Assembly (NCBI GenBank): GCA_937949545.1
Contig: CALEDR010000030.1
Location: 62,001 to 126,000 of the forward strand
From: an uncultured Phycisphaerae bacterium
Lineage (GTDB): Bacteria; Planctomycetota; Phycisphaerae; Sedimentisphaerales; Anaerohalosphaeraceae
Direction: 5' to 3'
Length of the DNA: 64,000 bases
Positions 60,439 through 62,156 of this stretch are shown here, in pieces; positions within the stretch are counted from its first letter, which is position 1, and each line of letters opens with the position of its first letter. The position numbers were made by a program, and so were the translations under genes. The notes below the pieces were generated by a model. That model worked only from the letters and a program-made list of their open reading frames with translations. It was not told the origin of the DNA and made no database searches.

Positions 60439-60918
60439 ATGCGAGTAAAACCGAGAACGAACGAATATCCGGCACCGGAAGTGAAAAACTTTCCGGACTG
60501 CACCAAAATCCAAACCCATACCATCACCATCGTTCCGCGCTACAGCGAGACGGACCAGTCGGGGGTCATTCACCATACGGTCTATCCGGTCTGGTTTGAA
60601 ATGGGGCGGACGGAACTGCTGCGGGCAAACGGGCTGGCCTACAGCGACTTGGAGAAAAACGGGATTTACTTCGTCGTGGCGGAATTGAGCGTAAAGTACC
60701 GCAGGCCTGCATTTTATGATGAGAAACTGGATTTGATTACCACCTGCACGCGGATTACCAGCGCCCGGGTGGAGCACAGCTATCGGCTGATTCGGCAAAG
60801 CATGGGGGTCCTGCTGGCCGAAGGCAGCAGCATCCTGGCGTGTGTGGATCAGGATGGACGGCCGCGTCGGATGCCGGAATTTATGTACCCGGAAGAACAG
60901 ACAGAAGAAAATTCTTAA
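60439..60918 (+). CDS. Acyl-CoA thioesterase, YbgC/4-hydroxybenzoyl-CoA type hotdog fold
   Basis: A 159-residue hotdog-fold thioesterase with the catalytic segment IVPRYSETDQSGVIHHTVYPVWFEMGRTELLR (D39 and neighbours) and the ELSVKYRRPAFYDEKLDLITTCTRI strand region. An extra N-terminal 28 residues precede the fold. GAGG precedes the ATG. Likely role in releasing acyl-CoA; substrate unknown. Divergent from murD. Confidence 0.9.
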   Translation: MRVKPRTNEYPAPEVKNFPDCTKIQTHTITIVPRYSETDQSGVIHHTVYPVWFEMGRTELLRANGLAYSDLEKNGIYFVVAELSVKYRRPAFYDEKLDLITTCTRITSARVEHSYRLIRQSMGVLLAEGSSILACVDQDGRPRRMPEFMYPEEQTEENS

Positions 60919-61019
60919 AAAATTTTTAAAGAAACCAAACAAAACGTCTTATAATATCGACCCACTGAACAATATTTTTAAAAATAAGCCGTTTTTCTTA
61001 ACTTCTTCTTAAACTTTTC

Positions 61020-61048
61020 TTGAAAATCAACTCGCATTCTGCTATACT
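61020..61048 (+). promoter_or_regulatory. Near-consensus sigma-70 promoter in the 1.4-kb gap
   Basis: TTGAAA (61020-61025), 17-base spacer, TATACT (61043-61048). Predicted start near 61055, on a perfect inverted repeat ACTTGT-ATA-ACAAGT (61052-61066) that could be an operator or a 5' hairpin. Confidence 0.75.
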
Positions 61049-61054
61049 CACACT

Positions 61055-61630
61055 TGTATAACAAGTCAGGAACTGGGGGAAAACAGATGACCATATGCAC
61101 AAGAAAAGTTGAATTGATTTTGGCGGTCGAGGGCGGACGCGGGCCGCCGGAAGCACAACGGAAACGTCCGTTTAGGCTTAGGCGGCAGGATTTCTTAACC
61201 CTTTTTCCGATGATTCTTATGACAAAAACTTGCACTCATTCCGGACCGTTTCAGAGCACATCGCCTCTTCCGCTGCCTGCCCTTTCCGGCCGCGACCCGC
61301 CGCTTCCAGAAACAGCTCTGAGCACCGAGCAATCGATTTGGAAGCGGCGGATTTATTTTGTATGCTTTTCATAGACGAGGAAACGAGGTCAGGATCGATA
61401 ACTTAGAAAAGGATGGGATTATGCCGCTCAGAGCAGAAGACATCATTGACCCGTACCCGCACACGGGAGAATCGAAGGCGAAGGGACGAGGCCCGCCGGA
61501 AGAATAAGTGAGAAAAGGGATTTTAAGAAACGCCAAGAACTTTCCTAAAAAGCCCGCCGAAAATCCCACAAAAAAGTCGTGATAAAAAACAGAAAGCAGA
61601 CTTCAAAAGGTGTTCTGCTTTTTTTGTTTT
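61055..61630 (+). ncRNA. Candidate structured RNA or small-protein transcript, unidentified
   Basis: A roughly 575-nt unit between the promoter at 61020 and the terminator at 61593. No known ncRNA family (RNase P, tmRNA, SRP, 6S) fits. Structure: a perfect 12-bp inverted repeat at 61297-61308/61339-61350 around a 30-base loop, TCAGAGC at 61251 and 61428 both complementary to GCTCTGA at 61315, and several smaller hairpins. The plus frame 61087-61374 (95 codons) has GGGGGA before its ATG but an odd composition. The segment GGACGnGGnCCGCCGGAAG occurs at 61135 and 61484. Coding versus RNA cannot be settled here. Confidence 0.3.
61593..61625 (+). terminator. Intrinsic terminator closing the candidate RNA unit
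   Basis: AAAGCAGA (61593-61600) pairs with TCTGCTTT (61614-61621) around a 13-base loop and is followed by a T-run to 61625, then more T after one G. Confidence 0.75.
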
Positions 61631-61764
61631 TAAAGCACAAACCCTGGAACTGGTGCTCAGGGTATAAAGGGAGATTTTCAATTGGCAATTCCCGATTTCC
61701 GATTTTGGAAGCAAGCCGGCCGGAAATCACGGTTGAAAAAGGAGACGAAGTAATTATGAAAAAA

Positions 61765-61877: not shown

Positions 61878-62156
61878 TTAATTCGCTCCGCCAATCTTTA
61901 TCAACTGTTTGCCTATGTGAAGAATCTGGAAAGCCGGGGCGGAGCGAATCGAACCTGCGAAGGGATGCTTCTGAATCCGACAGTCCGGCGGGAGCTGGAT
62001 GAGGAATGCACAATCGGGGGGCATCGGATCGCCTTCAAGACCATCAATCTGAATCAGGATTGGCGGCAGATTCACCGGGATTTGCTGACAATCATTCAAG
62101 AAAGTCCTCTGGCGGAATCCGGCAGCCGACAGGAAATCTTTTCTGCTTCAAAATAA
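61878..62156 (+). pseudogene. C-terminal remnant of an McrC-like restriction subunit
   Basis: The plus frame from about 61878 reads LIRSANLYQLFAYVKNLESR and then CEGMLLNPTVRRELDEE, GGHRIAFKTINLNQDWRQIH, ending at a stop at 62156. This is the C-terminal pattern of the McrC/LlaJI-type subunit of modification-dependent restriction systems (nLYQL.AY, eGmLLyPtv, hri..kTinLnqdW..I). An in-frame stop at 61860 and the absence of about 300 N-terminal residues show a truncated gene. An ORF beginning at a GTG at 61917 exists but lacks a proper start. Confidence 0.7.

Follow-up and report, generated by a model that had tools for sequence, protein, structure and literature searches.

Between positions 61020 and 61630 of the window, by which we mean the whole 64,000-nucleotide stretch of DNA analysed, lies a unit of about 576 nt, in an enclosing genome of 2.84 Mb. 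It follows a thioesterase gene (TIGR00051, 72.1 bits against a cut-off of 68.7) and had been described in the initial annotation as a promoter-to-terminator unit without a convincing protein. The elements that gave the unit this outline are in place: the promoter TTGAAA-17-TATACT at 61020-61048 (score 10 of 12), a terminator hairpin at about 61593-61626, and a perfect 12-bp inverted repeat exactly at 61297-61308/61339-61350. The features of the locus are:

60439..60918, + strand: upstream neighbour, gene of a YbgC/FadM-type acyl-CoA thioesterase (Pfam 4HBT_2, E 1e-13; TIGR00051)
60995..61025, + strand: candidate activator site, 11-bp direct repeats TTCTTAAnnTT (x2) and TTCTTGAAA, overlapping the -35 element
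61020..61048, + strand: promoter P_A, TTGAAA-17-TATACT (promoter scan; conserved in relatives)
61075..61079, + strand: Shine-Dalgarno GGGGG of ORF A (from the sequence)
61087..61374, + strand: ORF A (MTICTRKVELILAVEGGRGPPEAQ...), RGPP codons 61138-61149 (homologues; pN/pS)
61219..61374, + strand: ORF B (MTKTCTHSG..ALSGRDPPLP..), RDPP codons 61291-61302 (homologues)
61297..61350, + strand: terminator-like hairpin, its 5' arm starting at the Pro-Pro codons of ORF B, followed by ATTTATTTTGTATGCTTTT, T-rich
61338..61366, + strand: weak candidate for a second promoter, TTGGAA-17-TATGCT, within a conserved AT-rich element 5' of ORF C
61409..61413, + strand: Shine-Dalgarno AAGGA of ORF C (from the sequence)
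61421..61507, + strand: ORF C (MPLRAEDIIDPYPHTGESKAKGRGPPEE, 28 aa), RGPP codons 61487-61498 (profile match)
61593..61626, + strand: terminator of the unit (hairpin fold z -2.7)

Clear in-frame protein homologues were found, an outcome that the initial annotation had named as one that would refute its proposal. The frame 61087-61374, which had been named earlier, is real, and a second one at 61421-61507 with the same motif had been missed. Six-frame reading of the relatives revealed three short ORFs in a fixed order, and judged by its sequence the unit is an operon, conserved among relatives, in which every one of the very short ORFs has an RGPP or RDPP tetrapeptide. The consensus of A is M...(L)AVEG(G/A)RGPPxx, that of B is M...PP-x6-(R)(G/D)PP, its first PP being lost in the window and in the closest genus members and kept in other genera, and C reads MPPR...FYRPCWxAHERGPP in other genera and MPLRAEDIIDPYPHTGESKAKGRGPPEE in the window. 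R(G/D)PP is all that the three share in sequence. ORF C is recovered by its profile in its own genome with E 4.2e-8, the window copy being one of the profile's 18 rows, and a B-type profile built from other genomes misses the window's own ORF B at E<=0.01. The motif of ORF C ends two residues ahead of the stop codon, and in several relatives with A ORFs of 14-23 aa the motif is likewise close to the C-terminus. A 5-base Shine-Dalgarno-like match stands ahead of 18 of the 20 ybgC-linked A ORFs. In its own genome and in G004 the frame of ORF A reads into ORF B without a stop, so that one ORF holds two motifs, and since ORF B is without a Shine-Dalgarno sequence in its own genome, ribosomes may have access to it solely through ORF A. 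Several ORFs have no stop codon before their terminator.

The three motif sites (RGPP at 61138 in A, RDPP at 61291 in B, RGPP at 61487 in C) are the only R[GD]PP among ATG-started ORFs shorter than 130 aa on either strand of the 64-kb window. When the 611-nt unit was shuffled 20,000 times with its dinucleotides preserved, three motifs were never obtained, two motifs once and one motif 63 times. ORFs A and C are under frame-specific purifying selection across the family: pN/pS in frame was 0.18 for A (core, 19 family genomes) against 5.2 and 3.4 in the other frames, and 0.28 for C (core, 15 genomes) with at least 1.5 in the other frames. Within the genus (four members each) the in-frame values were 0.37 for A and 0.36 for B, and other-frame values reached at least 1.2 in both genus sets and in the core sets of A and C, except that frame 2 of B in the genus had no synonymous change and a ratio cannot be formed; ORF C within the genus gave no purifying signal (pN/pS 2.16, four sequences with few differences). 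The distance from the start codon to the motif is nearly fixed, the arginine being residue 17 in 14 of 20 A ORFs, residue 21-22 in 13 of 18 B ORFs and residue 20-22 in 19 of 20 C ORFs. In 60 curated motifs, which stem from related genomes so that the counts are not independent, the last proline codon was always CCG (60/60), the first was CCG in 51 and CCA in 9, and all six arginine and all four glycine codons were used; the background proline usage in long ORFs of the same loci was CCG 0.49, CCC 0.26, CCT 0.14 and CCA 0.11. On these comparisons the R(G/D)PP motif is well supported by conservation. In four B-type ORFs (G013, G020, G049, G050) L, H or T replaces R, and these may be incapable of arrest.

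Promoter matches with a score like that of P_A are not rare (6 in the 4.5 kb scanned, 3.8 expected), and despite this P_A is conserved in relatives. The repeats that overlap its -35 element may be an OmpR/PhoB-like site; TCTTAA-N5-TCTT[AG]A has two matches in the window, both strands included, and both lie at 60995..61025. The promoter repeat pattern TTCTTAAnnTTTTCTTAAnnTTTTCTTGAAA was found once in the unit's own genome and in 7 of 38 family genomes, with 0 control matches. All seven matches sit at RxPP units and three of them belong to the hypF-type copies of G002, G052 and G054 (see below), so that ybgC- and hypF-linked units share a promoter type. Assignment to a phosphate regulon was rejected, since no CTTAA box turned up around the genome's two PBP_like_2 (PstS-type) genes, whose flanks were read for 1.5 kb in either direction. 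A second promoter before ORF C was also discarded (sigma-70 score hardly above that of shuffles, mean 8.2 versus 7.6, 27 genomes). The AT-rich element (TTATAGTTTATACGG type) at 61351-61370 has the same place in many relatives, 50-90 nt 5' of ORF C, and is kept even where ORF C stands alone. At the end of the unit, the terminator hairpin and its T-run are retained in G003 and G004; a simple terminator scan did not list the hairpin 61593-61626. An anti-Shine-Dalgarno-like stretch (CCACCTCCTCCT and variants; CCTCCTCC) occurs after ORF C, 30-60 nt ahead of the final terminator, in the loci of G042, G119, G046, G044, G040, G017 and G047 and is absent in the window.

The inverted repeat at 61297-61350 folds into a hairpin of -30.3 kcal/mol (z -5.7; none of 200 shuffles as good). 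Covariation was examined in this hairpin: among six genus members 94.4% of cells pair and two pairs are changed on both sides, with a covariation score that 14 of 500 shuffles also attain. At the threshold set for terminator-like hairpins, one begins on the motif in 6 of the 18 B ORFs, where shuffles predict 0.7, and in 4 of 8 hypF-linked B' ORFs (0.2 expected), compared with 2 of 23 C ORFs (0.5 expected; one further, truncated C ORF is left out) and 1 of 32 A ORFs (0.4 expected). In the window and in several relatives ORF B extends past the hairpin to its stop codon, and an RNA that ends at the hairpin would therefore have none. A tmRNA scored over the cut-off in 27 of 38 family genomes, the unit's own included.

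The complete unit is present in two genus members (G003, G004), with DNA about 85% identical, and in diverged form in G001, G005 and G002. Farther downstream, positions 61881-62107, which include most of a 79-aa ORF, are 92% identical in G004 and lie about 1.0 kb farther from the unit there, which indicates an insertion or deletion between them. In the Phycisphaerae of the family labelled Anaerohalosphaeraceae, 24 of 30 loci of ybgC, the thioesterase gene, have RxPP-type ORFs in the 900 nt that follow the gene; one of the six loci without them has just 24 nt of downstream sequence, and five genomes without ybgC-linked ORFs (G007, G010, G012, G016, G019) carry RxPP ORFs elsewhere. Among named ybgC loci, 15 of the 20 close ones have downstream R[GD]PP ORFs (L181 shows just an unrelated RAPP), and A/B/C-like ORFs were found at none of 41 other ones (L220 and L230 end at a contig edge). 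Profile searches gave type C in 22 of 397 class genomes at E<=0.001 (21 of the own family, and G028), type A in 39 of 159 order genomes at E<=0.1, nearly all strong matches being in the own family, and type B in 21 of 159 order genomes at E<=0.01. One genome of another family (G119, L089) has a complete A-B-C set adjoining the thioesterase gene, and transfer and contamination cannot be told apart for it.

The ORFs are not tied to one neighbourhood. ORF C stands after the thioesterase gene without adjacent A and B in G006, G008, G009 and G021, and in G017 it lies on another contig. A paralogous unit, A'-B', is divergent from hypF in 10 genomes (loci L152, L153, L155-L159, L163, L167 and L168 in G020, G049, G050, G013, G016, G054, G052, G002, G045 and G009), with B' in 8 of these; hypF was confirmed by Pfam and NCBIfam in 5 of 5 tested and judged by sequence likeness in the remainder. 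The MRGPP codons form an arm of a GC-rich terminator in the hypF-type units of G002, G020, G049 and G050. More A-type ORFs occur near other genes in G018, G008, G019, G051 and G025. In G025, which belongs to another family of the order, an A-type ORF (LAVEGCRGPP; L164, about 1650-2260) lies upstream of a regulator-like ORF that we take to resemble an Rrf2-type regulator, and could be a true leader. No conserved gene was found downstream of the ybgC-linked units, where the next gene is often on the opposite strand (convergent) and otherwise varied, and nothing is conserved after B' in the hypF-type units.

The shared tetrapeptide belongs to a well-studied group. RGPP is described as the strongest known ribosome-arrest core: together with RAPP it caused arrest refractory to EF-P in several arrest-peptide contexts, most strongly of the two, and in 10 of 17 bacterial groups no other tetrapeptide was as infrequent, RDPP being under-represented and partly permissive for arrest (PMC12992588). 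The arrest mechanism of RAPP has been solved by cryo-EM and places the last proline codon of the motif in the A site (PMC10951233). A RAPP-like motif by itself is reported as insufficient, and the majority of tested RAPP-like sequences from E. coli and B. subtilis gave no arrest (PMC10987492; PMC12992588); arrest is therefore something that we infer here, strongly so in view of the selection on the motif. Because every ORF carries RGPP or RDPP, the ORFs probably encode arrest peptides and not small proteins of the ordinary kind. The small-protein operon that the initial annotation had offered as one possibility thus has the right architecture, in that short ORFs have ribosome-binding sites and the unit has a terminator and a conserved promoter, but probably the wrong kind of product. 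We consider it reasonably likely (probability about 0.6) that the unit gives rise to a free-standing RNA which encodes RAPP-like arrest peptides in tandem.

On this reading, a strong and probably regulated promoter would yield an RNA with two or three ribosome-loading sites, of which those of A and C look good here. Planctomycete ribosomes would translate about 17 codons (A) or 20-22 codons (B, C) until R-G-P-P or R-D-P-P is at the peptidyl-transferase centre, where the bond to the last proline would not be made and the ribosome would park, as in ApdA/ApdP and SecM. A ribosome parked on ORF B should cover the 5' arm of the hairpin and may thereby affect termination, as their overlap suggests, and one that passes the motif would, if the RNA has been terminated, reach an end without a stop codon and call for tmRNA rescue. 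A chain of about 20 residues is probably too short to be pulled on from outside the tunnel, which makes a SecM-like release by pulling unlikely and would leave long parking or rescue as the outcome. Since no conserved gene lies downstream, the RNA most likely serves as a dead end on which ribosomes are loaded and held, sensing or buffering the translation state instead of acting as the leader of one gene. This role is the least certain step of the scheme, and the benefit of such a ribosome trap to the cell is hypothetical.

A leader function for a downstream gene was rejected, as there is no conserved neighbour. The main rival to the dead-end reading is attenuation in cis, in which arrest in A or B would cover the 5' arm of the terminator and let the polymerase read into C or beyond, the longer RNA being the output. 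The principle is known from bmrCD, where ribosome-mediated transcriptional attenuation has been described (PMC4191407), and the position of the hairpin arm on the Pro-Pro codons of B, and on the MRGPP codons of B', well above expectation, supports this model. The missing conserved gene, the often convergent or different neighbours, the occurrence of ORF C without adjacent A and B and the lack of anything conserved behind B' speak against it, as does the separate terminator that closes the window unit about 90 nt past ORF C, and we regard attenuation as improbable, though still to be taken seriously.

The conservation beyond the motif (FYRPCWNAHERGPP in C, LAVEGARGPP in A) would also suit ordinary small proteins or peptides, acting as signals, antimicrobials or ribosome binders in trans, with GR(G/D)PP functional in the released peptide. 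It is hard to reconcile with this that the three peptide types have just R(G/D)PP in common, and that RGPP is the tetrapeptide which bacteria avoid most in 10 major groups (PMC12992588). Moreover, the peptides are nowhere hydrophobic enough for a signal or anchor (Kyte-Doolittle maximum over 15 residues 1.3) and match no Pfam or NCBIfam family, and several of the ORFs lack a stop codon before the terminator; released peptides are thus an unlikely explanation. A regulatory sRNA or dual-function RNA, on which parked ribosomes mainly shield the transcript from decay, would fit the free-standing site downstream of or divergent from unrelated genes, with a promoter and a terminator of its own, and the anti-Shine-Dalgarno-like CCTCCTCC ahead of the final terminator in several relatives, yet the conserved nucleotides are mostly codons, the whole RNA folds little better than chance, and CCTCCTCC is missing in the window, so that we find this slightly harder still to credit. 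The large structured RNA proposed in the initial annotation is very improbable and, the strong local hairpin 61297-61350 apart, unsupported, because the whole 576-nt RNA hardly beats its shuffles (z -1.1; 17 of 100 as good), the conservation is peptide-like and frame-specific, the only Rfam match at the gathering threshold anywhere in the window is a tRNA and the interval 60940-61700 yields none up to E = 1, and the mutually exclusive GCTCTGA/TCAGAGC pairings, which do exist in the window, are not conserved, their partners being changed in G004 and elsewhere. All three of these readings are less likely than a dead-end transcript or attenuation.

Returning to the dead-end transcript, we offer, as a tentative generalization to which we would give less than even odds, that some planctomycetes possess dedicated ribosome-parking transcripts. 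These would be free-standing minigenes under a common regulated promoter, with ribosomes that are held at RGPP after some 20 codons as their only product, present at two or more unlinked loci in some species; the arrest would work in trans, as a means of holding, counting or protecting ribosomes, and would require a CCG-reading proline tRNA in the A site. That the last proline codon is always CCG is a testable hint that RxPP arrest depends on which tRNA occupies the A site. The presence of RGPP, the tetrapeptide most strongly excluded from bacterial proteomes, in two or three copies on a very small conserved transcript, and also at a paralogous locus not linked to it, where neither has a gene to regulate, would take arrest peptides beyond their role as leader peptides and makes the unit a direct test case for the effects of ribosome arrest on its own. 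Gene callers usually apply a lower limit of 30 codons, and many such ORFs fall below it, so that similar units could be widespread and unseen. The published survey, as it is described, covered annotated ORFs together with their downstream genes and would on that account miss free-standing units (PMC12992588). No report of free-standing or tandem RGPP units was found in the open-access full-text literature of PMC; the arrest motif is already known, and tandem free-standing arrest units without a target gene appear to be unreported in the open literature.

The closest comparison group is formed by the known RAPP-like arrest peptides (ApdA, ApdP, ApcA, SecM; the RQH family; the S. lividans set; CruR). 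As in these, the ORFs are short, with R-x-P-P near the C-terminus, a variable N-terminal part and a motif that is conserved as amino acids, and all three have a core of the RAPP-like kind (RAPP, RGPP, RAGP; RDPP partly permissive). RAPP-like peptides precede a gene that they regulate, whereas the unit has no downstream gene to control; it differs further in its tandem arrangement of two or three arrest ORFs per transcript, in ORFs that are often only about 14-28 residues long, in a second proline codon that is always CCG, and in the overlap of the motif of ORF B with a terminator. The peptides also lack the N-terminal localization signal that is usual in members of the Sec/YidC type, though not in all RAPP-like peptides. 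With attenuators such as the bmrCD leader the unit shares the position of the stall codons of ORF B (61297-61308) on the 5' arm of a terminator hairpin, but no structural gene stands behind that terminator. In ArfA-type ORFs an internal terminator yields a nonstop mRNA, and ORF B resembles them, in the window and in several relatives, in having a hairpin inside the ORF and its stop codon past the hairpin; it differs from them in that it has no recognised rescue-factor domain and that an arrest motif precedes the hairpin.
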